NCBI GenBank assembly: GCA_964019165.1
Contig: OZ025271.1
Coordinates: forward strand, 11,580,259-11,644,258
DNA: 64,000 nt
Reading direction: 5' to 3'
Source of the DNA: Mastigias papua
Taxonomy: Eukaryota > Cnidaria > Scyphozoa > Rhizostomeae > Mastigiidae
In this document: positions 9,847 to 55,939 of the stretch, one piece after another
Numbering within the stretch: the stretch's first letter is position 1
Layout: the number at the start of each line of letters is the position of its first letter
The notes under the pieces: generated by a model
The model's database searches: none
Seen by the model: the letters and a program-made list of their open reading frames with translations, nothing else
What the model was told of the DNA's origin: nothing
Position numbers and translations under genes: made by a program

Positions 9847-10946
9847 TAGAGTTTTCATTAATAAGAAGCCGTTGCTTTAAAAACTGAAAGGGAGGGTGCC
9901 TGTTTGATCTCAAAAGCAAGGTTATTCCATAATTTGGCTCCGCGGTAGGAAAACCGTTTCTGACCATTCAAAGAAATGCTCATTGGAAGCCTCAGATCTG
10001 TAGCAGTATTTCTCAAGTCTCGTTAGCTGCATTCAGAGTTTCTTTTAAAGAGTTTGCAGATATATTGAGGAGCCTGATTATTTAATGACTTAAAGATTAA
10101 CTGCTTTGATTCGAAAGAGATCAAGTCAGCTATGGTCATCCAACCTAAGCTCCTAATAAGTGGGCTACTAGGGGCATCAAAGGCGCTGTTTGTCAGTATT
10201 CTAGCAGCTCTATTTTGCAGTTTTTGCAGTTGTAACAGTGTGCTCGAGCCACAGCATCCCAACACAGAGCAGCAATAACAAAGGTGGGGTTCAACTATGC
10301 TTAGGTATAGTGATCTTAAAGAAGACGCAGGGAGAAATTTCTTAGCGTGTTTCAAAAGTCCCAGTACCTTTGATACCTTCGAAGAGATTGATTTAATTTG
10401 ATCCTTCCAGTCTAGGCTATCATCAACTTGTACTCCTAAGTATTTAACTTTTTGCACCACATCTAGGTCATTTCCTCTAATATTTAAGCAGAGATTACCC
10501 CCTGCCATCTTAAGTTTTTGATGCTTAGGTTTTGTGCAGATAAGCATCGACTGAGTTTTCGACACATTTAAGGATAGCTTGTTTCCTTGCATCCATAAAT
10601 CAAGGCGTCTGAGATCATCATTGATGGCCTCATTATGCTGAGAAATGTCCTGAGATTGTAAGGTAAGGCTTGTGTCATCAGCGTACATGGAGACAGTGGA
10701 GGCTTTAACAACTTGTGGAAGATCATTTATGTAAATTAAAAATAACAATGGCCCTAAACAATATCCTTGTGGAACACCGACATCAATGTTGCCGATATTA
10801 GAGTCGAAGCCTCCGACTCTACAGTACTGTTTACGATTGAAAAGATAAGACTTGAACCACAACAGCTCATTCAGTTGGAGACCATAATGCTCTAATTTAT
10901 GACATAGTATGGCATGATCCACTGTGTCAAATGCTTTTTTAAGATC
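9847..10946 (-). pseudogene. LINE reverse transcriptase, C-terminal half
   Basis: The frame opens at the palm with KAFDTVDHAILCHKLEHYG, continues with DVGVPQGYCLGPLLFLIYIN (the QGS/LGP block) and the catalytic YADD in STVSMYADDTSLTL, then the thumb (LSLNVSKTQSMLI, VKYLGVQVDDSLDW). After a stop near 10023 the tail resumes in another frame with FSYRGAKLWNNLA, ending near 9847. The catalytic residues survive but the frame is broken at both ends. RT would copy the element's RNA at a nicked target. Confidence 0.8.
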
Positions 10947-11340
10947 TATTTTTTTTTATATAATTCAAAGACTAAATTACAACTACAAACTTATATTACA
11001 GTGGCGTAGATCGAGTAAACATTCTATTGAAAGTTCATAGTTCACGACCACACCACTGTACAATACGATTTACATGACGAAACCACAGGAGGTGTGATCT
11101 AGCACATGGACAATGAACACTATAAATTAACATGTAACTATCAACAGTGCCATTCCTATTCCAAAAGGGATCCTCCACTCAAGAAACTCATTATGCAATT
11201 GAAATTGACCCCCAGACACCTCCAGGTACTAAATTGAATATAAATATATATGCCGCGATGGGCATGTGTATGACCCCTATTGGAATAAGTTCGGCACAGG
11301 AAAAAAATAATGAATAAACAAACATCTATGATTTAAGATC
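10947..11340 (-). mobile_element. Retroposed fragment inside the LINE
   Basis: A 394-bp insertion interrupts the codons between the fingers and palm of the RT. TTAAGATC occurs at 10939-10946 and again at 11333-11340 as a target duplication. The + strand starts with a T-run at 10948, so the insert carries a short A-tail at its 3' end on the - strand. It lacks RNA polymerase III boxes that I can see; it looks like a retroposed mRNA 3' end or an unclassified SINE. Confidence 0.6.
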
Positions 11341-12095
11341 GATGAAAACTGTCCCAGAGATGCAGCCTTTATCCATTCCCATATACCACTTATCTTTGTT
11401 TTTATTAGACAGGTCACCGTTGAATGGAGCTTTCTATAGGCTGATTGACCCCAATATATTAGATTGTTTATGTTGAGGTAGTTGTAAAGCTGGTCAAAAA
11501 TTAGTTTCTCAAATAGCCTGGCAACCACTGGGAGAACTGAAATAGGCCGGTAGTTTTCTTTGCATGCCCTGTCACCCTCCTTAAAAATAGGTGTGATCCT
11601 GGCAATTTTCCATTTATCAGGAAACAGATTTGATTCAATAGAGGTGTTAAACAGGAGAACAAGCGAGGTTTTGATGTAAGTAAAGGCCAGTTTCAAGACG
11701 TAGCTGGAAATGTTATCATTCCCAAAACTTTTTGACAATTTAATTCTACTAAGCGCTTCTCCAACGTGCTGTACCAGTATTGAATTGAAAGTAAAAGTGC
11801 TTTTTAGTGGATTGATATCATAGTCACCTGAAAGTAGAGGGTTTGGAGATTTATCAATTTTTCCTGCAAGATCTCTACCAACAGAGCAGAACTATTTGTT
11901 CATAACATTAGAGATCTCTCTCTTGGTAAAAATTTCAGTGCCCTTCTCACTTATCAGATCAATATTGGTAGACTTAGATCTCTTATTTAATAATTAGTTG
12001 ATTGTCCTCCAAGATTCTTCCATGTTACCCTGAAACTGGATAATTTTTTCCGAAAAATACTGTCTCTTGAGATTAATATTGAGTTGATTTACCAT
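11341..12095 (-). pseudogene. LINE reverse transcriptase, N-terminal half
   Basis: Frames contain LSKSFGNDNISSYVLKLAF, then LFPDKWKIARITPIFKEGD and ENYRPISVLPVVARLFEKL, the standard fingers motifs of LINE RT. The ORF at 11277-11738 runs out of frame near SAYRKLHST. In the correct frame the sequence up to the insertion reads DKGCISGTVFIDL, which joins the palm of the other half. Upstream, the linker is readable with a few stops to about 12095. Confidence 0.75.
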
Positions 12096-24095: not shown

Positions 24096-24292
24096 TGTTC
24101 ATGCTAGTAAAGTCTTACATGTGTAGTATTTTTGTTGCATCATTTTACTAACTATGTTAATTATGGTTCATGTCTATATAAGGAATGCTTTAAGTATTGT
24201 AACTAGCGATATTGTTTCTGTCAGTTATTTGGGTGCACTTCAGTGCGTATGCTTTGCTTCCATATGAAGCTTCTCAGGATGATACTGTTGAA

Positions 24293-24724
24293 GGTCACAA
24301 AGCTCATAGGTGCATCTTAACTTACAATGGTCACAAAGCTCATAGGTGCATCTTAACTTACAATGGTCACAAAGCTCACAGGTACATCTTAACTTACAAT
24401 GGTCACAAAGCTCATAGGTGCATCTTAACTTACAATGGTCACAAAGCTCATAGGTGCATCTTAACTTACAATGGTCACAAAGCTCATAGGTGCATCTTAA
24501 CTTACAATGGTCACAAAGCTCATAGGTGCATCTTAACTTACAATGGTCACAAAGCTCACAGGTACATCTTAACTTACAATGGTCACAAAGCTCATAGGTG
24601 CATCTTAACTTACAATGGTCACAAAGCTCATAGGTGCATCTTAACTTACAATGGTCACAAAGCTCGTAGGTGCATCTTAACTTACAGTGGTCACAAAGAT
24701 CACAGTTGCATCATAACTTACAAT
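24293..24724 (+). repeat. 12 x 36-bp minisatellite, open in one frame
   Basis: Twelve head-to-tail units starting GGTCACAAAGCTCATAGG; the unit length is a multiple of three, so the frame stays open and reads GHKAHRCILTYN repeats. Units 3 and 8 share the same variant (ACAGGTACATC, Tyr for Cys), which indicates duplication of a five-unit block. The last two units are most diverged. The 176-codon frame starts at 24212 with a hydrophobic stretch; whether it is translated is unknown. There are no spacers, so it is not a CRISPR array. Confidence 0.95.
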
Positions 24725-25242
24725 GGTAATTTCCTTGCATGAGATAGTAACTATGGATCATGTTACATAGACAATGAAGGTTGCAGGTAAACACTATTTA
24801 CACTTTGCTACACGGCCATTTTCCTTCTACAGGCAAATGCAGAATTTACTGTAAAATCACTACTACCTATTAAGAGAGGTGGTTGATTGGCTAAGAAACT
24901 GTATGGATTGAGTGAATTATTTGAACTGATTTATCTATGCATTAATAGCACCATCATTAGGAACAACATTGTAGTAGTTGGGTGTTATAGAAAGTTCACG
25001 ATTACTTCATTTGTTTCATTGATTATACTTTTTCAGCACTGAGCCAATCGTTGGACGTTAGAATAAAGCAGTGTTTCCACTTTCAAGGAAATTTTCTTAA
25101 AACAGGAAATTGGAACATTCTGCAAGGAATTTTTCAGAGCTGGAAAACTTCAAGGAAAATCTAAAGAATTATGTACTGATTCTTACGTGGTTTCTCACTG
25201 ACTGTCCTAACAATCAATTTTCGTATTTTCATGATTATGAGA
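24725..25242. other. Non-coding flank of the transposon
   Basis: No gene recognised between the minisatellite and the target duplication at 25243. Confidence 0.4.
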
Positions 25243-25248
25243 CTGGAC
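25243..25248. repeat. Left target-site duplication (CTGGAC)
   Basis: CTGGAC directly precedes the transposon and is repeated directly after it at 29950-29955, marking the staggered cut of one insertion. Confidence 0.9.
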
Positions 25249-25648
25249 TATGGTGGCCTAGAACCGCCATAAGGAATTTTGAACATGATATCCAAATTTT
25301 TCAAAGTTAATTAAACTCATGGTTAACAAACATTTTAAACCGTTTGAACATGAACCAGAAGTCAAATAAAAATGAAATAAAATTTCAAACCATTTGACAA
25401 TGAAACAAAAATCAAATGAAAATGATATAACATGCTGTTTAAAACCATTTGAAATTGAAACAAAAATCAAATGAAAATGAAATAACATGAAATTTAAAAT
25501 CGTTTGAAAATTAAAATGGAAACTCTTCCAGCCTAGAACCGCCATAGCACACAATGCAGTGCTCACGCAGTGTGCTCGCATCATAAGCTCAAATGGCCAT
25601 GGAAACGAGGTAAGAATAGCCCCCGCCAAAAGGTACGCGCTGATCAAC
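25249..25648. repeat. Left 400-bp terminal inverted repeat
   Basis: It matches the reverse complement of 29550-29949 almost base for base; I see one substitution and a compensating pair of single-base indels near the inner end. It is rich in ATTTGATTTT/AAAATCAAAT blocks, and TAGAACCGCCATA appears both at the outer end and again internally at 25533, so the repeat itself has subterminal repeats that may be transposase binding sites. Confidence 0.93.
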
Positions 25649-25703
25649 GCTCTTGTCTAGCTAAGTTGTGGAAGTTTCTGCTTGTTATATCTTCTCATTT
25701 ACC

Positions 25704-27041
25704 ATGGCATGGGAAGAATTTCGAAAGAAAATCAAAATGAAGAGAACTGGCAACAAACCTGGTAATGTTGCAAGTGGAGGCGGAGTTGGATATAGCATTC
25801 TGCAATCTGGAGAAATAATTGTCCAACGGTTGTCTGCTGAAGTGTCTGGAAAGGCCCAAAAATATACAAGGATAGGTGCCCGAGAGTTTGTTGAATTCAA
25901 ATATCCAGAAGTCACACTGGAGAATATAAAAAGCAGTTGCGAGAACCACTTCAAATCACAGCTAGGAAGTGACTACTACTGCGACATATTGGCAGGAGAC
26001 CAAGGACCTTCATGCTCCTCGCTAAGTCATATTCCCAACTTAAAAGTTATTCATGTAAGATTTGTCAGGGTGTCAAAGAGAAAAGCAAGTAGTCATAATG
26101 ATGTGCAAACTTATGAGCCTTTGATACATCCTCCTATGAAACTGAAGAGAGGTCGAGCAAGCAGCAATGTGAGTACATGTTCTACACCACAGTCATTTCC
26201 CACAAGTAGAAAAGCATTAGTACTTGCTTCAGTGCCAGGTCCCTCATGCTATCCTAAAAGTTTATCTGTTGCAGACATGTTAAAGCTTGGGAAAAACTTC
26301 AGCAAAGCTGGTGGAACTGTTGTGCACCTATTTAGATTTGATTTACAGCAGATGTTGTGGTCTTCTGTACCAACAGACATTGAATTGTATATTGAAGATA
26401 GCCCTATAGGAGTTGGTGGGTTTCGAGAAGCTTTCAAAGCTACGTGTTCAAGTCCTGCATTCAGAAATACCTGGGTTCTGAAAAAATACCATGAGGGAAC
26501 ATTGAAGATCATTGCTGACCTGGGAATCACAATAGAGCAGCATACAAAGAGAATTGTTCAAATGCACACTTTGGCTAGGAACTTTTGCTACCAACTCAAG
26601 GCAAAGATTTGCAATGAAGGTGTATCTGAAGAATATGGAGAATTTCTTCACTATGGTGAGGTATATTTTGGCAAACTTGATGATGGAGAATGTGTAACCA
26701 TTGAGGAATTTATCCCTGGCAACTTTGTAAAATATATGAACAACACTGGGATTATGTGTACCACTCATTCTGATGACAAAGATATTGGTAAAAAAGCTGA
26801 AAATCTGGCCCACTTCTCTTATGAAAATTCACAGCAAAAGTTGATGGTCACAGACATCCAAGGAAGTGGCTATTCCTTATATGATCCAGAAGTTGCTTCT
26901 GCTAATTTGACTGATGCAGATCAAGAGGTTTTGTTCTGTGCTGGCAACCTATCCAACTATGCCATAGAGACTTTCAAAGCCAACCACGTTTGCAGAAAAT
27001 TTTGCAAACTAACAAGACTGGAGGAAATTTGCTCTGTTTAG
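25704..27041 (+). CDS. Alpha-kinase (MHCK/eEF2K-type) encoded as transposon cargo
   Basis: A single-exon ORF. The start at 25704 sits in ACCATGG, a better context than the in-frame ATG at 25668, and gives 445 residues. From the 25704 start, about residues 1-200 are unassigned and end in a basic, Ser/Pro-rich linker. About residues 215-445 form an alpha-kinase domain: GVGGFREAF loop, VLKKY with the nucleotide-binding lysine, EEFIPGNFVKYMNN, then AHFSYENS, LMVTDIQG with the catalytic Asp, and CAGNL. NHVCRKFC plus the His of AHFSYE supply the family zinc site. All key residues are present and there is no stop or frameshift. It should phosphorylate Ser/Thr, often in helices; substrate unknown. 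It converges on the transposase; both are bracketed by the same inverted repeats. Confidence 0.9.
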   Translation: MAWEEFRKKIKMKRTGNKPGNVASGGGVGYSILQSGEIIVQRLSAEVSGKAQKYTRIGAREFVEFKYPEVTLENIKSSCENHFKSQLGSDYYCDILAGDQGPSCSSLSHIPNLKVIHVRFVRVSKRKASSHNDVQTYEPLIHPPMKLKRGRASSNVSTCSTPQSFPTSRKALVLASVPGPSCYPKSLSVADMLKLGKNFSKAGGTVVHLFRFDLQQMLWSSVPTDIELYIEDSPIGVGGFREAFKATCSSPAFRNTWVLKKYHEGTLKIIADLGITIEQHTKRIVQMHTLARNFCYQLKAKICNEGVSEEYGEFLHYGEVYFGKLDDGECVTIEEFIPGNFVKYMNNTGIMCTTHSDDKDIGKKAENLAHFSYENSQQKLMVTDIQGSGYSLYDPEVASANLTDADQEVLFCAGNLSNYAIETFKANHVCRKFCKLTRLEEICSV

Positions 27042-27288
27042 GTCTGATATAATGCTAAGATATTGTCCTGTTAATGTTTTGTTAATCCCAAAAAAGACCC
27101 CCCACAGTTAAAACTACATATGATAGAGCACGTGTGCAGTGGTGTTAGAATTGATTTCTCTTCTATTTTCAAAGATATACCATGTTACTACATTAACATT
27201 TAGAGTGTTACTAGTAGTTATATTATTAGACAATCTACTAACTTAACTGCTATTTTGTGTAGATGGTGCCTTGGAATATATGGGTTTT

Positions 27289-29639
27289 TTATGTGCTTTT
27301 CCATCTGGTTTTTAAATACAAAAAGGTATCAACACAGTCCCCTGGTTTCACTTTCAGTGGATCCTGCAGGATTGCTTCACATTTCCTTCGAAATTCTGGG
27401 TGTAGAAAATCATCTGGACTGTGCAAAATATTTGAAAACCCTGCAACCTCCTTTAATTCATCTTCAGTGACTTTCCAGCCTAAATAAAATGAGAGATACT
27501 TCTTATCAAAGGGAGATGGGATTGACCAGGCTTGACTACTGCTGCCTGTATTCAAGTCATTAGCTACATACATGATTGTGTAATACTATTGAAAAGAAAC
27601 AAGTCTACTACTACCAACTGCAATTGTTGGAAAATCATCAGTTGTCACGGCCTATTAGGTGTTCAATGAAGTATAACAAAAACTTGTGCCCTGAATTCTA
27701 GCACATGTTTTCTCTTCTATTGCATTTTTAATGTTGTCTGTTTCATGAGGTGCAAACCTTATACACCTTAGATTCAGGCAAAGATACAGCCTTCTACATA
27801 GATACAGCTTCTAGTTAGATCCATGTTCGCTTACCATATTCATCAAGTCCATAAACTGCTGGAAAGTCATAGATGTGGTTTGGGATGCCATCTGCAAGGA
27901 ATGTATATTTCTGAGTTCTAATTCTGTGAGTGTTCCAAATAGTGTCTTTGAAGATATTAATTTCACTATCCACCAATGGTACCATGAAATAAGCCAATAG
28001 CATCCTGGAGAAAAACCTTTACAATATTATGGTGGAAAACTACACATATGTTCAAAATTAGTGCTTGCCTACACATCAATGCTGTGTTTCACCCAAAATG
28101 GTGCCACATACACCTTGAAACATAATATAAAGTATAATTGATAATAACAATATATTTCAAGGTATGGTGTCATGTGACATTAAAGAATATAGCAACTATT
28201 AGGAAATAGCACTAAGTTTCATTACAAAAATATTATTTTTAGAGGCATACAAAAACTGCAACCTGTCTGTTTCATCATGTGCATCATAATATCCATTTTC
28301 TAACAAATACTGTAAAGGCAACTTGTAGAATTTCTCAAGACGCTCATGAAGGTCCTTCCACCATCTTTCAATCTAAAATAAGATACTACATAGTTAACCT
28401 CAAGGAAGCACAACTAACACATAACAAGTAAGAAGTAGGATGACAAGAAAGAGAAATGTTGTAGAGAGAATACCCAAGGTAGTATCAATTATTTTGCATA
28501 TATACAAACTAGTACCTTGGGTATGTGAGTAAATATGGCCCAAACTGGAGTCCTACTGTTGCAGGATTTCAATTTGCCAGAAGAGTACCTCTTCTATCTA
28601 AATAACCATTATTATAATGTGAGTTGTCCACAGCCTGATGGGGTAAAGTATGGAGATTGTTTCATCTATCTACAAAGCAACTTTGCAGATATCTAACAAT
28701 TGCCACAAACTGGGATCCCATCTCTTCATTTGGAGGGTATGGTTTTACAGGTCTGTGGTCACTTCTATATTATTGAAATTGCTTACCTTATTAGATGTTG
28801 AAGGACCATATATCACTGTCTTATCACACACAGTATTGCACTCAACATCCTTCATGTCATCACAGTTTCTTCTTAAATATGCATGCATTGTTGCAATGAT
28901 GCCTGTTTCTGTACCTTTATCTAGTCTCAGTTTTGAAGCAATGATGCCATTTTGCATCAAATATTCTAGGTACCTGCGAGCAACCAATAATGGATCATGG
29001 TTAGAGGTCCAGACTTTTACCCACAATATCTTACGGCTGGCTGTATCTAGACAGCCATAGACTGCCAGGGGGAATGTATTATTCTGATATCCCATTAATT
29101 TGTCGTGCCCATCCAATGAATGCACTTGATTAACTCCACCAATAATAAAATGTCCTTTCGTTTTCTGATTTTTACCAACTGCTCTTTCCTGTAGACCTGC
29201 TGAATCCAAGTGAGACATCATATCATAAACAAGGTCTCGCGGAACATTAAGTTTATGGATTTGGCGGATTTTCTGGTGCATAGCTCTATAACCGAGGAGC
29301 TTTCCAGGGCCTTGCAGTTCCTCTTCCACAGCTTGTTGCACCGCATGGTGTGGCTGCATCAGTGTATTTAATGCCGAAGTAATTCAATCGCCTTTCCAGT
29401 GAACGCATGCTCCAAGCATACTGATTAAAATCCCTTCTCAAGTAATCCAAAATTTCTGTGCGTTGCATACATTGCCGAACTTTTTCGATCAAACACTCCT
29501 TCAAAATAACATCATCTTTCCAACTATCGTCACGAATACGAGCCATATTGTTGATCAGCGCGTCCTTTTGGCGGGAGGCTATTCTTACCTCGTTTCCATG
29601 GCCATTTGAGCTTATGATGCGAGCACACTGCGTGAGCAC
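27289..29639 (-). CDS. IS3EU-like DDE transposase, five coding blocks, one frameshift
   Basis: Coding blocks on the - strand: 29639-28787 (with a frameshift near 29350), 28372-28263, 28004-27835 and 27545-27289. Splice phases agree throughout and the donors at 28786 and 27834 are GTAAGC. The N-terminus lies in the right terminal repeat and contains a helical DNA-binding-like region (YLRRDFNQYAWSMRSLERR). The integrase-type core has VHSLDGHDKLMG (first Asp), LRLDKGTETG (second Asp) and IERWWKDLHERL (Glu) at the start of block two, so the triad is complete. The C-terminal block reads VTEDELKEVAG...DDFLHPEFRRKCE, typical of this family. The frameshift between KYTD and VEEELQGPG would disable it unless it is an assembly error. 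Confidence 0.85.
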
Positions 29640-29949
29640 TGCATTGTGTGCTATGGCGGTTCTAGGCTGGAAGAGTTTTCATTTTAATTTTCAAACGATT
29701 TTAAATTTCATGTTATTTCATTTTCATTTGATTTTTGTTTCAATTTCAAATGGTTTTAAACAGCATGTTATATCATTTTCATTTGATTTTTGTTTCATTG
29801 TCAAATGGTTTGAAATTTTATTTCATTTTTATTTGACTTCTGGTTCATGTTCAAACGGTTTAAAATGTTTGTTAACCATGAGTTTAATTAACTTTGAAAA
29901 ATTTGGATATCATGTTCAAAATTCCTTATGGCGGTTCTAGGCCACCATA
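29550..29949. repeat. Right 400-bp terminal inverted repeat
   Basis: Reverse complement of the left repeat. It includes the presumed start codon of the transposase (29639) and about 30 codons of it, so the left repeat holds a copy of the same N-terminal coding sequence facing the kinase. Confidence 0.93.
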
Positions 29950-29955
29950 CTGGAC
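29950..29955. repeat. Right target-site duplication (CTGGAC)
   Basis: Direct repeat of 25243-25248. Confidence 0.9.
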
Positions 29956-40964: not shown

Positions 40965-41918
40965 TTACAAGTTTGTTACAAAAATATTAAAGTTCAGACA
41001 GATCATTTGTACGTCTGTCAGGGATCTCTTTACCTTGTGGTTTTTGAGGATCGGACGTGATTTGTTAGGAATAATGGAAGGCAAAGTTGTGCATGGATTT
41101 CTCTTAAAAAGCTTGAAAGCTGGAGACTTACCATCATGAGAAGGTGTAGTGTTTAATGCAAGTAGTGCTAGGTAAACATCTTGACCAGATTCGTGAGCTT
41201 TTTTGAGAGTGCGTTTCACAGTTTGAACTTGTCTTTCAACAAGCCCATTACTCTGAGGAAAATGGGGACTTGATGTGTCATGTTCAAAATCCCATGTCTT
41301 TTCAAATTGCTTATATTCATTGGAAATTAACTGTGGACCGTTTTCAGAAAAGAGTGTTTTTGGTATACCATGACGGCTGAATACCTCCTTGGTGGCTCTT
41401 ACGACTGTTGAAGCATCAATAGGTTTCTCGAGGGGCACTATCTCAAAATATTTTGAATGGTAGTCAATAATTAGGAGGTATTCTTTGCCATAAATTGTTA
41501 ATAGATCACAGGCCACTTTTGTCTATGGTGTGCTAGGAATATCATAAAGTAACAGGGGTTCATGTTTCTGTCGGCTACGATGATTAAGACATTCAGGACA
41601 TTGTGATACAAGTTCAATGATTTCATGATTGATGCCTGGCCAGAATATAGAGTTTCTTGCACGAATACTGCATTTTTCTTGACTTTGATGACCTTGATGA
41701 ATGAAAGATTTGATCTCTGAGCGCATAATGGGTGGAATAATTATGCGTTGGTCTTTAAGAAGTAAATCATGGTTGTAAACGATATCATCGCGATGTTGGT
41801 AGAATGGTGTGAGTGATGGATCTACGTCTGGTTTTGGTGGCCAAAATTTGATGGTGTATTCTTTTAGTTTCTGCAAAGTTGTGTCACGTGCAGTTTCCGA
41901 TTGTAGACATTGCACCAT
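40965..41918 (-). pseudogene. Gypsy integrase
   Basis: The HHCC zinc module reads HQGHQSQEKC...SQCPECL in the first block (41523-41918). After a stop at 41520 the core follows: ACDLLTIYGKEYLLIIDYHS holds the first Asp, LFSENGPQLISNEY is where the second Asp normally stands (Glu here instead), and NGLVERQVQT keeps the Glu. The substitution in the triad and the stop mean it cannot be active. Confidence 0.85.
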
Positions 41919-42209
41919 TGCATCACTAATGGGTAAAGTTTGTATAACTTAATGAACTTAATGCATCATTTCGGCTTCATCGATTTCACATTTGCTTCCC
42001 CCTATTGGAGTGTAAGCACGACTTAGTGTGTCAGCACCTTTCATTGCCCTCCCGGTTGAGTATTCAAGAACATAGCTGTTCTTTTGCAAACGAAGAAAAA
42101 AGCTGTGTATACTAGGTGGACATAATGCTATACTTCTGGAAAATATGGCTTTGAGAGGCTTGTGATCATTCTAAACAACAAATTCCCGTCCATAGAGATA
42201 CTCACGGAA

Positions 42210-43113
42210 TCATTCACAGCGAAAAACTATTGATAACGCGTCACGTTCCATGGAAGCATAATTTTGTTCTGATTTATCCAAAGATCTTGATGCAAAAGCA
42301 ATTGGGTGCCACACTCTGTCAAGGGATTGCTCTATCGTCTCACAGAGACAAATAAGACTTGAATCAGTGCGAAGTCGTATTGGCAAGTTTGGATCGTAAT
42401 ACTGAAGAATAGGCACAGTGGTAATTATTGATTGCAGCCATTAAAATGCATCTTTCTGAGGTTTCAACATAACAAATTTCACATCTTTTTTTTAAGAGTT
42501 CTCGAAGTGGCGCAGTTTCATCAGAAAGCCTGGGAATGAACTTCCCTAGGTAATTGACCATCCCCATAAAGCGCTGAAACTCGATTTTGTTGGTGGGGAT
42601 AGGCATTTTTGTGATAGCCTCTACTTTTCGAGGATCGGGTCTCAAGCCTTCAGCTGATATGATGCGACATAGAAATGTTAGCTTTCTAGCCCCAAAAGTA
42701 CATTTATCGTTGTTCAGCATTAGACCACTATCTCTGATTGGTGTAAGTACTTGTTGAACTCGAGCATCGTGGGTATCCTTTGTGTCAGCCCAAATTATGA
42801 TGTCATCGTGTGAGTTCGCTACACCGCTTATACCCACGATAATTTTGGAAATTTCTAGCTGAAAGATTTCGCTCGCTGAGTGGATTCTGTATGGCATCCT
42901 TTTAAACTTGTAGCTTCCGAAAGTGGTGGGAAAAGTGAGCAAGTCAGAGCTTTCATTATCAACTGGGATTTGCCAGTACCCATTACTAGCATCAGGTTTC
43001 GTGAAGAATTGAGCACCGTTCATTGGAGATATAATTTCTTCCGCTGTTGGAAGGCGATAGTGATGCCTTTTGATTGCTTGATTAAGTGGTCGGGTATCAA
43101 GACATACTCGCAA
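42210..43113 (-). pseudogene. Gypsy reverse transcriptase and RNase H start
   Basis: Fingers RVCLDTRPLNQAIKRHHYRL, palm FTKPDASNGYWQIPVD with the first Asp, and SHDDIIIW where YVDD/VDDI is expected (His replaces the hydrophobic residue before DD). The connection domain (FMGMVNYLGKFIPRLSD) leads by a frameshift into RNase H (DSSLICLCETIEQ, HPIAFASRSL). The upstream protease region (43160-43380) is readable only in pieces. Confidence 0.85.
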
Positions 43114-43387
43114 ATTCCCATTAGGTTTACTGACAACAACCCATTAGGTATACTGGTATAATTATAAGCAGAGAGCTTGACAGAGGTGGTCTTCAACTGG
43201 GGACGGGGTTTTAAGCTTGTCAAAATACTTCTTTTGCAGTACATTTACTTGTGCACCTGTGTCAATTTTGTAGCATATATGTTTACCAGCAGTTTCCAAG
43301 TTAATTGACCATTGACAGGGAGTTGTATCATTAACTGAGTCGATCTTGAGTGGCTTTTCAAAATCAGGAGGAGTTAAAGAGTCTTGG

Positions 43388-44242
43388 TCAGTTGCGTTTA
43401 AAATGCGTATCTGACGAGGAATCAGAACATGGACCGAGATTTTCTTCCTCTACTATCTGAACACGTTTTGTCCAACATTTACCATAATGATTGTTATGGT
43501 GACATCTATTGCATTTGTGAGCATAGGCTGGACATCTTCCAGGAGCGTGGCTGCTTTCACAAAATTTACAACGTTTAATTATCTCTGCTCGCTTACTCTT
43601 GAACTGTGCTTTCTCCGGTTCTTTGGAGGGAGCCCCAGCACTATCCTGTTTTGGTTCTTTCCACCTATGATAATTAATTTTACTAATTGAGCGGTCAGTA
43701 AGAGTGGTGAGCTGTTTGGCATGTTCCTTTGTTTGTTCCACAGCCAGACCAAGTTTTATGGATGTCGTAAGAACCAATGTAGGCTCCCTCAGCATCCGTT
43801 CTCTGAGAGCACGGTCAGTAACGCCACAAATAATCACATCTTTTATGAGCGAGTAACGCAAATTCTCAAAGGCACATTCAGCTAACAAAGTTCTAAGTTT
43901 TGTCACAAAATTGTTGAAAGGTTGTCCTTCAGCTTGGTGATAAGTAAAGAATTGATGTCTATTGATAGTGATGTTAGAGCGGGGGTTACAATGTGCTTCA
44001 AACTGATCGAGAACAGGATTTAATTTGAGCGAATCACCAGCAGTTGTAAACTCAAAAGTTTCATAGATTTCCCTACCACGTTCTCCTATGCAGGTAAGTA
44101 GAATAGAGGTCTTAATCTTATCTTATTTCGTGTCAGATTCAGTGGCAACAAGGTAGAAATCGAAGGCCTTCCGCCATGTTTTCGAAGTCTGTCCCACGTT
44201 GCCTTCGAAAGACAGAGGTCCAGGCGGTTTGAGACGTTCCAT
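43388..44242 (-). pseudogene. Gypsy gag with two zinc knuckles
   Basis: Begins at 44242 with a MERLKPPG-type start, carries FDFYLVATESD, and meets one stop near 44125. It continues as the capsid-like FFTYHQAEGQPFNNFVTKL and ends with CKFCESSHAPGRC and CNRCHHNNHYGKC, the CCHC knuckles of invertebrate gypsy gag proteins that bind the element's RNA. Confidence 0.8.
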
Positions 44243-49905: not shown

Positions 49906-51140
49906 CTAACTAATCATTGTGGGATCTAGCTGCTGAAATCCAATGCTTTCTAGCAGATTTCTCATCCAGATAGTTTCTTGAGCTGCACAGCTTAAAGAAA
50001 CATATTCTGCTTCTGTCGAAGACAACGCTACTATTGATTGCCTTCTAGTTTTCCATGACACTGTTCCATTACCAATCTGAAACAGATATCCAGTTGTGGA
50101 TTTTCTTGTGCTTACATCTCCTGCCCAGTCCGCGTCTGCATATCCATGAAGATTTATTTTCATATTATCTTTTGCTTTGAACTCTAGACCAAAGTCAGTT
50201 GTTCCTCTTAAATATCGCAAGACTCTCTTCATTCCTATGAAATGCTCTTCTCCTGGATTTGACATGTATTGGCTCAACATGCCCACTGAAAAGGCTATAT
50301 CTGGGCGTGTAGCAATAGCTGCATACATAAGAGATCCGATTATACACTGATATTCTCTCAAATCAGTTGTCTGCTCTCCATCCTTCAACTTCTCGTACTT
50401 CTTACCAACTTCCATGGGTGTTGAGACTGGCTTGCAATTTGACATGTTAAATCTTTTCAGGATGTTTTCAAGGTAGGCCTTTTGACTTATGTGCATAGTT
50501 TTGGTACTTCTGTCTTTCTTTATGCACATACCCAAGCAATGATGCATTTCACCCTGATCTTCAATCTCGAATCTTTTCATCAGTTGATTCTTTTCCTTGT
50601 TCAACATTGTGGTATCATTAGTAGCTAACACAATATCGTCGACATACAATGCTATTAGCATCAAGCATTGCTTTCCATCTCTATTCTCTGATTTCTGATA
50701 CATGCATGGATCTGCGGTGCTTTGATTGTATCCAGAAGCCTTTAAGAAACTATCCATCTTGACATTCCAACAGCGTGCCGATTGCTTTAAACCATAGAGA
50801 CTTTTTCTCAACTTGCATAAAAAATCTGGATGGTCTTCATCTTCATATCCTTCAAGCTGCTCCATGTATAGCTCGTGCTCCAACTCTCCGTTTAAAAACG
50901 CTGTTCTGACGTCCATTTGATGAACTTCTAAGTTTAGTTGGACTGCTATTGCAAGCAAAGATCTTATTGAACTGAATCATGCCACAGGGGCATAGGTGTC
51001 ATCGTAGTCTTGTCCAGGTTCCTGTGAGTACCCCTGAGCTACTAATTGAGCTTTGTATCTATCGATACTTCCATCTGCCTTGCGTTTCACCTTAAACACC
51101 CATTTACATGTAACAATGTTCTTGTCTTTTGGCATTTTCA
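49906..51140 (-). pseudogene. Copia reverse transcriptase and RNase H
   Basis: The RT N-terminal part is readable above 50958 ([20 protein letters not shown]) with a stop near 50980. Then QMDVRTAFLNGELEHELYME, LYGLKQSARCW and ALYVDDIVLA (catalytic pair intact), the connection (MYAAIATRPDIAFSVGMLS), and RNase H with HGYADADWAGD, STTGYLF and LSSTEAEYVSLS. The frame ends with a stop at 49906. It is the best-preserved part of the element. Confidence 0.92.
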
Positions 51141-51147
51141 CTAAATC

Positions 51148-52253
51148 CTACGTTTTATTCACTTTCAAGGATTTATACTCATTGTCTGTAGCTTCCTTCC
51201 AGTGACCCCAGTTGCTGCTGTTCATGGCTTCTTTCATATCCTTTGGTTCATCTTCTTCTGTACTTGCTACAGAAGCAACATTCCTCCAATCTCCAGTAAT
51301 TGCACCAAGACGATCCGGTGCAACAACACGACGCCCAGACCTCCTTGGAATAACCTCGGGTTGGTAGTTTATATTTTCAGCCTCCCTTGGATGCTCTACC
51401 TGTGCATCTTGATCAACAACTTCAATTTCCTCATCATTGAAAAACAAATCATTCATCAACTGTGATCCTTCATCTAGCAACTTCTGATTTTGCACCTTTT
51501 TTAGCATCTTCAGACCATCCTTTATAAAGGTATCCTCCAAAAATAACGCATCACGGCTCAGTAACATCTTCTTTGTAGCAGGGCTATAGAATTTATAACC
51601 CTTAGAGTCATTTGGGTAGCCAATAAATATGCACCTTTCAGATTTCTTATCTAATTTCTTTCGTTTTTCTTCTGGCATGTGGGCGTAAGCATTACATCTA
51701 AATACACTGAGGAAACTAACAGCAGGTTTCCTTGAGTAATAACATTCGAAAGGTGTTGCATTGTGGACATGAATTGTTGGACTTCTGTTTCGTAACAAGG
51801 CTGCAGTTGCAACAGCTTCTGCCCAAAATGATAATGGGAAACCGGCTTTATGTAACATAGAACAGACGCTCTCCATAATCGTGCGATTCATCCTTTCAGC
51901 CACTCCGTTCTGTTGAGGTGTGTATGGTACAGTGATTTCTTTCTTATTCCACGACTCTTACAAAATTCAATAAATTCTTTCGAGCCATATTCACCCCCGT
52001 TATCAGATCTTAAGACTTTGACACGCTGACCAGTAACGTTTTCAGCCAAGTTGACAAATTCTTTAACCTTGTCCAAAACCTCTTCTTTGTTCTTCATGAT
52101 GAAAACCTTTGTGTATCGTGAAAAGTCATCAATGAAAGTGACAAAATATCTTGATCCACCGATTGATTGAACACTGAATGGTCCGAATACATCAGAATGA
52201 ATAATCCCTAGCAACTGCTCAGCTCCATGATCACTTTTCTTGGGAAAGGGCAA
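51148..52253 (-). pseudogene. Copia integrase
   Basis: IIHSDVFGPFSVQSIGGSRY carries the first Asp, VLRSDNGGEYGSKEF the second, and after a frameshift near 51900 the frame resumes just past the Glu-containing helix at MAERMNRTIMESVC. The C-terminal part (FRCNAYAHMPEEKRKKLDKK, CIFIGYPNDSKGYKFYSP) is typical of copia. The zinc-binding start is on the far side of the LINE, near 54983-55115 (CDGCAMG). Confidence 0.9.
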
Positions 52254-52254
52254 A

Positions 52255-53374
52255 CGATTAAAATGATTAAATTAAATTTTCTACTGGTGTTTGTGAAAGA
52301 ACATATTATTGCCAAACGCCTTTGTGGCATATCGTTACGTAGCGATGTACAAATAATACCTATAGAATTAAATCTTAGAAATAAAAAGTGGCTGTTAATA
52401 CCAATTTACAGGCCTCCAAGTCAGAATTTTGCAATTTTTAAGGAGGAGCTAGAAAGAGTGATTGATTTATACTCCAATTCATACGAAAATCATATGATAA
52501 TTGGAGACTTCAACATGGAAATAGAAGACCCAGTAATACGCTCATTGATGGGAGATCACAACTTGAATAGCCTTATTAAAACACCCACATGTTTCAAATC
52601 TGATAGAGGAAGATGTATAGATCTAATCCTCACAAATAAATAGCACAGTTGCTTTTCTAGCCAGACTTTTGAAACAGGTTTCAGTGATTCCATCACCTTG
52701 TGTATACTATACTCAAAACAACCAGTGTTAAATTGCCCCCAAAGAAAATCAAATATCGATGTTATAGAAATTTCTCAGAAAGCAAGTTCCATAATGATCT
52801 GACTGAAAGATTTAGAGCTCACCCCTCAAATGACTACAACGATTTTGAGCAAAGTTTTATCTCAACACTTGATAAACATGCACCTTTAAAAAGAATCGTT
52901 ATTCGAGGAAATAATAAACCCCACATGAACAAAAAGTTGAGAAGGGCAATAATGAACCGTTCAAGATTAAAAAGGGTCGCAAATAAAACAAAACATCCTA
53001 AGGATATTGCAGAATATAAAAAACAAAGGAATATAGTAGTTCGATTAAATAAAGAAGCAAAAAGGACATATTATGAGAATCTAGATCCCAATGAAGTTGG
53101 AAAAAACAAAGTGTTTTGGAAAACTTTTAAGCCTCTGCTGTCAAACAATTGTCATAATGGGTCAAATAAAATAACATTAATAGAAGATGGATCACTGTTG
53201 ACAGATGATAAGGATATTAGTGAATGTTTTAATACCTACTTCACAAATATAACAGACACATTAGATATTGAGAGGCCTATTATCGATGACAAATCAGTGC
53301 TAGCAGCTATTGAACGGTATAAGACACATCCGAGTATTGTCAAAGTAAAACAATTAATTAAACCTAATCATTAA
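52255..53374 (+). pseudogene. LINE endonuclease C-terminus and linker
   Basis: PIYRPPSQNFAIFKEELERV, HMIIGDFNMEIED and GRCIDLILTN are the last blocks of an apurinic-type (EEP) endonuclease. A stop follows at 52641. The linker to the RT is open from about 52700 (KIKYRCYRNFSESKF, LDKHAPLKRIVIRG, KTFKPLLSNN) and ends at 53372. The apparent ATG at 52227 belongs to the copia side of the junction and is not a real start. Confidence 0.85.
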
Positions 53375-54900
53375 TTTAGCTTTGGCAAATTTGATACAAA
53401 AGAGGTATGGGATGAAATCAATCGATTAGAATGTTCAAAGTCTGTTAGCGGCAACATTCCAACAACAATTTTGAAAAAATTATCTGCTTTATGCTTTGGT
53501 GAAGTAACCAAAATTGCAAACTCTATGATTGAAAGCTTCCAGAAAGCCTTAAAAAAGCTGATCTGTCGCCTGTCTTTAAGACAGGAGAAGCAACAGCAAA
53601 GAAGAATTTTCGACCAATAAGTATTTTATCTGCAATTTTTGAAAGGTTGATGTCGAAGCAGATCACGTCATTTATTAATCCAAAATTGTCCAAACTTCTA
53701 TGTGGATACAGAGAAGGCTACAGCTCTCAAGATGCTCTATTTAGAGTTATTGAGCAATGTCGCAAGGTACTGGACAGGTCAGGCAAGTTTGGAATGGTAC
53801 TTATGGATCTGTCAAAAGCCTATGACTGCATTCCCCATGATTTACTGCTAGATAAGCTTGAAGCATATGGCTTCGCTTTGGACAGTTTGAATTTAATGAA
53901 TAGCTACCTCACAAATAGATTACAAAGGGTTAAAGTAAATGGAACTTATAGTAGCTGGCAACAAGTAAAATCTGGTGTCCCACAGGGCTCAGTTCTAGGG
54001 CCTTTGCTATTCAATTTATTTATTAACGATTTCATTTACGTCATCGAAGACTCAAAAGTTTGCAACTTCGCTGATGATAATACTATCTACGCATTTGATG
54101 ATAATATAGAAACCATTTTAAGACTGCTCAATGGAGATATAAATAATGCCTTACAATGGTTTAAAAACAACCAAATAGCAGCAAACCCAGACAAATTTCA
54201 GGTGATCTTTATGGGCCTTGAAAAAGGTCAATAATTGAGTCTGGAAATAAATGGTATATCTATAAGGACAACTGAGGGGGTTAAACTTCTTGGAATAACG
54301 ATTGACTTAAAGTTGCAATTTCAGAATCATGTGGAAGCTATTTGTAAAACAGCAAACCAAAAGGTAAAGGCGTTCTCTCGAATAGCTGGGTATCTGCAAA
54401 AGCACAAAGCATATGTACTGGACAAGACTTCTATAAGGTCAAGTTTCAACTATTGTCCACTGATATGGATGTTTTGTGGTAAAACAGCAAATAATAGAAT
54501 ACATCAGTTGCACAAACGCGCCTTGAGAGTCCTCCAAAATGACTATACAGCTACATTTGAAGATCTACTAGAAAAATCGGAAGAAGTAACGGTCCATTGG
54601 AGTAACCTACAAAAGCTGATGATTGAAATATATGAATGTACCAATCATATTGGCCCTGCTGTCTTGACATAGTTCTTTACAACTAAAGAAATAATCTATG
54701 ATCTGAGAATAATAAATCTCCTCCAGATACCAAAAGTAAAAACATCCTCGTATGGACAAAGCTCCCTATCGTTTAGAGGTAGTATACTTTGGAACACTCT
54801 TTCAGACAGCATAAAATCGGCTCAAAATATTAAAGGATTTAAACCAATGATGAAAAACTGGAAGGGAGAAAATTGTACCTGTATTATTTGTAAATAAAAA
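53375..54900 (+). pseudogene. LINE reverse transcriptase
   Basis: Fingers are readable in pieces (53420-53640: FRPISILSAIFERL). The palm is LMDLSKAYDCIPHDLLLDKL, SGVPQGSVLGPLLFNLFIND and CNFADDNTIYAF (FADD catalytic pair), then a stop at 54232. The thumb continues in frame (GVKLLGITIDLKLQFQNHVE, SSFNYCPLIWMFCGK) to a stop at 54670; the C-terminal tail (QSSLSFRGSILWNTL) is in another frame to about 54890. This is CR1/Jockey-group type, different from the copy at 9690-12110. Confidence 0.88.
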
Positions 54901-55114
54901 TATTGTAATTAAATAGTTGGTGTATATTAATTTATTTCTGAACTACGTTTTTAGTTATTATTATTATTATTATTATTCCCATTGCACATCCATCACATGC
55001 GCGGTCTATCTCTTGTTTGGGATTGAGCTTTAAACCATCGACCATTGACTTGTTGTACACCAACTTGACATTGTCATACCCTAAGTGTCCAAGCCTGCCT
55101 GTAATGCCACAAAT

Positions 55115-55930
55115 TCAAATCATCAATTTGGTTGATTGATGCAAATTAGATTCATATATCGGTTCAGCATTTAATATATACATCTTTCCAGCTTTGTGCC
55201 CAATACAATACGTTTCCCCATTCAAGATAACTATGAATGATTTCTCAATGAAACGCACTTCTGCACCCTTCTCTGTTGATGTAGGCAAAGACAGCAACTT
55301 CTTCTTACTTTTCGGCACGTACAGCACATTGGGCAGGTTTAAGTTGATTTCCTTAGAGCCATCATAAACCGTCATTTTCAAATCTCCTTTCCCATATGAA
55401 TGCAAAATGCTATTGTCAGCCAACTGAACCTTTCCTGGTGTTCCAAATTCTACAGAGTTCTGCATTTTGTCTTTTTCTGGTGTCATATGCTGCGTTGCGC
55501 CAGAATGTATCCACCAATTATCGTCAACTCTATTTGACTCAGTAGATGTTGCCAACGCCAATTGTGACATTTCAGCGGCTGCTATTTCCGGATTAGATTC
55601 AACAACAGCTTCTATTTGGTTCGCTGATTCCCTTGGACTTTTGTTTAAACCCTTTCGCTGATCTGATTTCTTTTTAAAGCAGTTCTTTGCATAATGCCCT
55701 TCTTTTTGGCAGTAATAACAGACTCCTTTCTTAGTGTTACGATTTCCTTTGTAACTTATACCTTTAGTATACAAGGCCTCATTCGTCTTGCCTTCTGCAC
55801 TTCCACCATACATTTTCTGATGCTCATGCACCAGTCTATCGCACACATATTCCCATGTAAGTCGTTCTTCTGAGATGGTTTCTAGGGCAGTAATTAAATA
55901 ATTATAACTGTCAGATAAACTGCTAATCAA
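55115..55930 (-). pseudogene. Copia zinc knuckle and protease
   Basis: CYYCQKEGHYAKNC is the gag CCHC knuckle. The protease site reads WWIHSGATQHMTP: the catalytic Asp of the family D-S-G-A signature is replaced by His. The rest of the fold follows (VQLADNSILHSYGKGDL, NLPNVLYVPKSKKKLLS). The His would abolish polyprotein cleavage. Confidence 0.9.
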
Positions 55931-55939
55931 AATTATTAC

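Follow-up and report, generated by a model that had tools for sequence, protein, structure and literature searches.

IS3EU transposons, the closest described relatives of the element reported here, have TA..TA ends, usually a 6-bp target site duplication (TSD) and an integrase-like DDE transposase, and the published tree leaves IS3EU and GingerRoot unseparated from IS481EU (PMC10045372). In the fungal TET+ IS3EU families described by Kojima (2025), which have 6-bp TSDs and TAYGG..CCRTA ends, a TET/JBP gene is always placed between a transposase and an alpha-kinase of opposite orientation; in the accessible text the alpha-kinase is assigned no function, TET is argued to counter silencing, and fungal TET genes are described as passing among many superfamilies (PMC12730594). 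A two-protein IS3EU ancestor has been inferred by the authors who described Styx of Zymoseptoria, a multi-gene element with an IS3EU-related transposase (PMC10853768). Here we analyzed a 64,000-nucleotide stretch of contig OZ025271.1 of the scyphozoan Mastigias papua (hereafter, the window) together with the 346.8 Mb assembly that contains it, and found at 25249-29949 of the window a 4,701-bp DNA transposon in which a transposase gene is accompanied by an alpha-kinase gene. Judged from the sequences of its relatives, this kinase is tied to a single transposase lineage, alongside which it has diverged.

By its ends, target duplication and transposase type, the window element fits the IS3EU superfamily. 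It shares the TA..TA termini, the 6-bp TSD and the integrase-like DDE transposase with IS3EU and GingerRoot elements in general, whereas the word ‘kinase’ occurs zero times in the main text of the article that describes those (PMC10045372). The likeness to the fungal elements extends to the TAYGG..CCRTA form of the ends, terminal inverted repeats (TIRs) longer than 30 bp and a kinase opposite to the transposase, but the fungal elements described carry a TET/JBP gene and their hosts are fungi, while the host here is an animal (PMC12730594). No Pfam match to TET/JBP was obtained in the five frames of the window element that were scanned, and the stretch that separates the kinase from transposase exon 1 has no open frame longer than 98 residues. 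Styx differs in that no alpha-kinase is named inside it in the accessible text, where the one kinase to appear is encoded by a duplicated gene in the vicinity of a copy (PMC10853768). The initial annotation of this locus knew of alpha-kinases as no standard part of DNA transposons; the pairing is in fact already published for fungal IS3EU (PMC12730594), and the window element adds to this known kind a new member from an animal, with fuller documentation. Full-text searches, a coverage that largely excludes subscription journals and Repbase Reports, listed no report of the pairing in animals.

The assembly was searched with the Pfam families of the two proteins, giving at least 88 matches for Alpha_kinase (PF02816) and at least 101 for rva_4 (PF24764); these are matches rather than genes, and both counts are lower bounds, 150 of the 169 rva_4 candidates having been scored. 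An rva_4 match lies within 6 kb of 49 of the 88 kinase matches (0.3 expected by chance), and 48 of the 49 pairs are convergent, although two of the 48 look like fragments of one kinase. The family of the window element is missing from these 49, as the rva_4 listing does not include its spliced transposase. All of the 30 best kinase loci (L001-L030) carry TATGGTGGCC, the outermost sequence of the window element, at or upstream of the first Met of the kinase frame, 28 of them exactly and two with one mismatch in a search that tolerated up to two. The genome contains 1,205 occurrences of this decamer, versus 81 of the reversed control. Of the rva_4 matches that score 50-83 bits, 28 of 31 are accompanied by a convergent kinase no more than 6 kb away, versus 0 of 27 above 83 bits; one of these 27 has a kinase that close, but in the same orientation. 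The score serves here as a stand-in for a tree, and the comparison uses 64 of the 101 rows (those below 50 bits omitted) and then the 58 that cover at least 130 positions. The 27 long matches above 83 bits (for example, C18:1440512 and C6:12408392) represent one or more higher-scoring transposase lineages.

The divergence of the two genes was compared in ten representative families. The distance matrices of kinase and transposase are correlated with a Mantel r of 0.81, a value reached in none of 20,000 permutations, although the kinase frame of L012 is truncated and the transposases of some loci are incomplete, with no fewer than 172 aligned positions. In both trees, L001 groups with L002, the window family groups with L007, and L063, L066 and L067 lie close together. 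Between families, nonsynonymous sites of the kinase differ at a median of 44% and synonymous sites at 77%, the latter saturated, over 493 non-independent pairs that include copies and leave out L063, L064, L065 and L066, which repeat other loci. This comparison points plainly to long-term constraint on the kinase between families. Since many related elements keep the same pair, the kinase has the look of an old functional component of the transposon, not of a chance passenger.

The anatomy of the window copy agrees with the initial annotation, which had described a 4701-bp element with 400-bp TIRs, a CTGGAC duplication, a spliced DDE transposase and a complete alpha-kinase, all of which are confirmed by the repeats, Pfam and sequence motifs. 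The element begins with TATGG and ends with CCATA, its outermost ends are TATGGTGGCC and GGCCACCATA, and CTGGAC adjoins each as a perfect 6-bp duplication. The two TIRs are complementary at 98% without gaps and 99.3% with gaps over 400 nt, and the kinase on the plus strand and the spliced transposase on the minus strand converge between them. The features are as follows:

25243..25248, no strand: left TSD, CTGGAC (from the sequence)
25249..25648, plus strand: left TIR (TATGGTGGCC...), 400 bp (repeat comparison)
25332-25515: 55-bp tandem unit inside the left TIR (repeat comparison)
25704..27041, plus strand: single-exon gene of 445 residues, with a conserved N-terminal domain and an alpha-kinase domain (open frame, Pfam, protein relatives)
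25794..26078, plus strand: conserved N-terminal domain, residues 31-125 (conservation among relatives)
26412..27005, plus strand: alpha-kinase domain, residues 237-434, with K260, E334, H370, DIQG 384-387, H428, C430 and C434 (Pfam, alignment)
27289..27479, minus strand: transposase exon 4, ending at the stop codon
27835..28004, minus strand: transposase exon 3
28263..28372, minus strand: transposase exon 2, with IERWW and the catalytic Glu
28787..29546, minus strand: transposase exon 1, which holds the first two catalytic residues (both Asp) and has its frame broken somewhere from about 29357 to 29339
29550..29949, minus strand: right TIR (...GGCCACCATA), 400 bp
29950..29955, no strand: right TSD, CTGGAC (from the sequence)

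Elsewhere in the window, a 36-bp tandem repeat of 12 units at 24293-24727 is open on both strands (frames 24203-24742, plus, and 24240-24710, minus), and open frames at 10023-11891, 40965-44122 and 49906-55939 resemble by eye the reverse transcriptases, integrases and gag of non-LTR, Gypsy-like and Copia-like retrotransposons.

The kinase domain matches Alpha_kinase with an E-value of 1.4e-28 and 100.7 bits (cut-off 21.3). K260, E334, H370, D384, Q386 and G387 of the DIQG motif, H428, C430 and C434, which from the alignment to 1ia9 we take to be the catalytic and zinc residues of alpha-kinases, are each invariant or at least 90% kept in a family alignment of 59 sequences, namely the window kinase and 58 of 120 listed proteins. 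Among the ten families of this genome, whose kinases are 32-56% identical, all twelve catalytic, loop and zinc positions tested are the same in every family, and we infer that the kinase is active. In a profile search, the kinase half gave 1ia9, the TRPM7 kinase, as the best match (E 2.4e-30), followed among the named kinases by MHCK A (E 5.9e-26) and eEF2K (E 4.5e-25). The kinase domains of TRPM7, Dictyostelium MHCK A and eEF2K align with that of the window element; its N-terminal domain is left uncovered, as in all 11 profile matches the best stretch begins at profile position 214 or later. Besides a calmodulin-binding site, eEF2K has helical repeats after its kinase domain. No such repeats were found in the window protein, in which the kinase match extends to residue 434 of 445 and Alpha_kinase is the one Pfam family matched.

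The N-terminal domain is conserved no less than the kinase domain, with a mean share of the commonest residue of 0.61 versus 0.57 in the 120 proteins listed of the 206 that match the kinase at an E-value of 1e-3 or better, and 110 of the 120 cover at least 85% of the whole protein. The domain is seen in nine of nine printed families of the genome (L009 being shown only to 150 residues). It gave zero Pfam matches at an E-value of 10 with three of three sequences, and its only match to PDB sequences was insignificant (E 1.1). Basic stretches at the start of the protein and in the linker resemble nuclear signals by eye, and the kinase probably acts in the nucleus. No relative was found with the kinase sequence in the viral and prokaryote contig collections, nor with the kinase and transposase profiles in the viral contigs.

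A DNA search with the repeat, followed by fetching of the copies, showed that the window element is present in five copies: the window copy, two on contig C21 and two more on contig C6. The full-length C21 copy is 4,684 bp long and 96.6% identical and has its own perfect 6-bp duplication, CATCAG. Because of this copy, the possibility that the repeats flank two unrelated insertions, which the initial annotation had named as a way in which its proposal would fall, is ruled out. The second C21 copy has deletions in the kinase and is flanked by CTGGTC and CAGGTC. The two C6 copies, near 17.73 Mb (L059, L065) and 18.11 Mb (L062), have the flank of the window copy wherever it was read, on both sides in one and on the left only in the other, and therefore are segmental duplicates and not separate insertions, a part of C6 having been duplicated; the independent insertions number three. 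In the terminal repeats, where the 55-bp tandem unit occupies 25332-25515 and 29683-29866, 318 of 373 bases are matched in the C6 duplicates, 55 fewer, so the number of units seems to vary between copies. Among database proteins, P0001 is nearest to the window kinase, from which it departs at two residues; at the first of these, residue 30, it agrees with the C6 duplicates.

The kinase recurs in all five copies, a check that the initial annotation had proposed, with an open frame in four, while the transposase is damaged in all five. The window copy is itself now a damaged member, with the kinase frame open and the transposase frame broken. Its transposase consists of four exons separated by three GT..AG introns, contains the DDE motifs SLDGHD, RLDKGTE and NK/IERWW, the last spanning the first intron, and matches rva_4 at 26.4 bits, barely above the cut-off of 26; 496 proteins match it at an E-value of 1e-3 or better. 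Both C6 copies hold a nested insertion at the spot in exon 1 where the window frame is broken. A 9-bp repeat flanks the insertion in the copy in which both junctions were read, and the other copy has the first junction and 1,301 identical insert bases in common with it. The window frame break may be a scar of the same insertion event. IS3EU transposases have no HHCC zinc motif ahead of the core; no zinc-finger family was matched here in the Pfam scan of five frames, in which the motif itself was not searched for.

The insertion sites were compared among kinase-carrying elements. The hexamers that adjoin the kinase-side end fit SWNNWS at 26 of 31 sites, while 5.4% would be expected at 37% GC; L009, whose hexamer fits as well, and L013, whose hexamer is the same as that of L012 and is taken as one site with it, are omitted. 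Such symmetry is the expectation for a dimeric DDE integrase. Both flanks were compared in six elements, of which five (window, L060, L063, L064 and L066) have a perfect 6-bp TSD and L061 agrees in five of six letters, and all six have TATGG..CCATA ends. Elements that carry the kinase have moved recently. In a ten-copy family (L014-L023), the kinase open reading frames are identical in nine members and differ by one amino acid in the tenth, the ten flanking hexamers are all different, and the kinase and rva_4 matched stretches are free of stops in all ten. Two elements of this family are 3,607 bp long, have repeats of roughly 255 bp and differ from each other at two of 3,608 aligned bases.

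From these data, we suggest the following model. The element is a copy of a two-gene IS3EU-type transposon whose DDE transposase cuts at the TATGG..CCATA ends and inserts the element at symmetric SWNNWS hexamers, a view supported by its anatomy and the 31 insertion sites. The alpha-kinase, with its own conserved N-terminal domain, has travelled with the transposase lineage long enough for the divergence of the two to match. Copies without a working kinase would leave fewer descendants, and in this way the catalytic and zinc residues would be kept; the co-divergence and the constraint between families, seen beside near-neutral drift within families, are what lead us to propose retention through transposition. 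Constraint on the lineages that jump and drift after insertion is the usual pattern of transposon genes. The N-terminal domain may direct the kinase to the transposase-DNA complex or to chromatin, where the kinase may permit transposition by phosphorylating either the transposase or some host protein close by. On balance, we lean toward a kinase that serves the element and has its target in the transposase complex or in a host protein near it, not in host silencing. The initial annotation had proposed a benefit to the element or to its host, and it is the former part of that proposal that we favour. A stronger version, in which the kinase is an obligate partner of the transposase lineage, mobility is governed by the element's own kinase through a private N-terminal targeting domain, and the partnership is old enough to be common to animals and fungi, is held more tentatively and is somewhat doubtful.

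Several observations weigh against this model. The two trees agree only partly, with L012 placed differently and the order within L063, L066 and L067 not the same. The pooled within-family omega of the kinase, from seven pairs of six families with 88 nonsynonymous and 30 synonymous changes, is 0.79 and not different from 1 (p 0.26), so that constraint among copies, which the initial annotation had put forward as a check, is clear between families but not within them. No rva_4 match lies within 6 kb of 39 of the 88 kinase matches, many of which are fragments and four of which are the window family, and three of the 31 transposase matches of the kinase lineage are without a convergent kinase in that distance. 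The 1,205 TATGGTGGCC ends far exceed the 88 kinase matches, and therefore many of the elements that move probably have no kinase gene of their own in cis. The kinase locus L067 is without a TATGGTGGCC end, and no left end was found there, although a related end, TATGGCGGCC, fits on its right side. The substrate and the role of the N-terminal domain in the model are guesses.

The kinase might instead phosphorylate host silencing, repair or checkpoint proteins and spare the transpososome, so that the element escapes repression. The co-inheritance data fit this equally well, and the fungal TET+ IS3EU elements all pair the alpha-kinase with a TET/JBP gene that is argued to counter silencing (PMC12730594). 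However, the kinase partners a single transposase lineage, as the two rva_4 score classes show, whereas fungal TET genes cross many superfamilies (PMC12730594); because of this fidelity, a transposase-specific partner fits somewhat better, and we regard action on host defence as unlikely, if worth keeping in mind. Retention of the kinase by selection on the organism, through eEF2K-like control of translation or germline effects, is improbable. Between the window and the full-length C21 copy, the kinase has 16 nonsynonymous and 9 synonymous changes (omega 0.48) and the transposase 23 and 4 (omega 1.47), a contrast in the direction of host benefit that is suggestive only (Fisher p 0.11). On the other hand, ten near-identical kinase copies at ten sites are the behavior of a transposon and not of a host gene, the kinase drifts within families, and no domain besides Alpha_kinase was matched in it; nothing found points to a host benefit or to the translational control that the initial annotation had suggested. 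Its argument that an open kinase beside a frameshifted transposase indicates a benefit also fails: among the 48 convergent pairs, stops occur in nine kinase and 16 transposase matches (p 0.16), with some transposase introns possibly read as stops, and the ten-copy family is open in both genes, so that the contrast is no evidence of host benefit. Transposons sometimes capture genes. The idea that a single element recently picked up an alpha-kinase exon of its host, under no constraint, the other outcome that the initial annotation said would undo its proposal, is nevertheless contradicted by the relatives, by the TATGGTGGCC ends at all of the 30 best loci and by the co-divergence, and we consider it extremely improbable.

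Relatives of the kinase are also found outside this genome. The named hosts among the matches listed, from searches of which one scored 8,000 candidates, include the cnidarians Dendronephthya, Exaiptasia, Actinia, Actinostola, Desmophyllum and Paramuricea, the hemichordate Saccoglossus and the sea spider Pycnogonum. For the Exaiptasia kinase LOC110237033 (P0073) and transposase LOC110237035 (P0143), the longest contig of each has 374,143 bases; for the Dendronephthya kinase P0136 and transposases P0145 and P0150, 4,408,652 bases; and for kinase P0062 and transposase P0251, 268,778 bases. From the equal longest contigs, the pairing is indirectly indicated in Exaiptasia and Dendronephthya as well; this and the fungal families (PMC12730594) favour the initial annotation, which had proposed a look for the pairing in other phyla as a check. 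Two side observations concern the assembly itself. Contig C121 (L069-L071) contains several COX1 matches that are dinoflagellate-like by eye and is perhaps a mitochondrial contig of an algal symbiont, and in a mitochondrial contig of the assembly TGA is read as Trp and cox1 has the reverse orientation relative to cox2 and atp6 (gene names by eye). Together, these features point to a medusozoan, perhaps a scyphozoan that harbors algal symbionts.

These results bear on how alpha-kinase genes are annotated. The relatives P0028, P0034, P0058, P0081, P0082 and P0132 are publicly named TRPM6-like, eEF2 kinase, MHCK D-like, vwkA-like or similar, and cnidarian and hemichordate gene models that go under the names ‘TRPM6-like’, ‘eukaryotic elongation factor 2 kinase’, ‘MHCK D-like’ or ‘vwkA-like’ may belong to transposons and not reflect expansions of host kinases. 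An alpha-kinase expansion is reported in rust fungi, where a table row gives counts of 79 and 39 for two genomes, 5 for another and 0 for seven (PMC4469406), and the alpha-kinase family is listed as enriched in another study (PMC5295586). By analogy with the rust-fungus finding of Kojima (PMC12730594), this expansion is perhaps made of IS3EU transposon genes. A protein kinase as the constant second gene of a cut-and-paste transposon has hardly been discussed, full-text searches having turned up a single article, Kojima (2025), that names the pairing, in one passage and for fungi (PMC12730594), and the Mastigias papua genome adds numbers to it in the form of copies, target sites, co-divergence and recent mobility. 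Families with both genes open and with recent copies make the role of the kinase directly testable.

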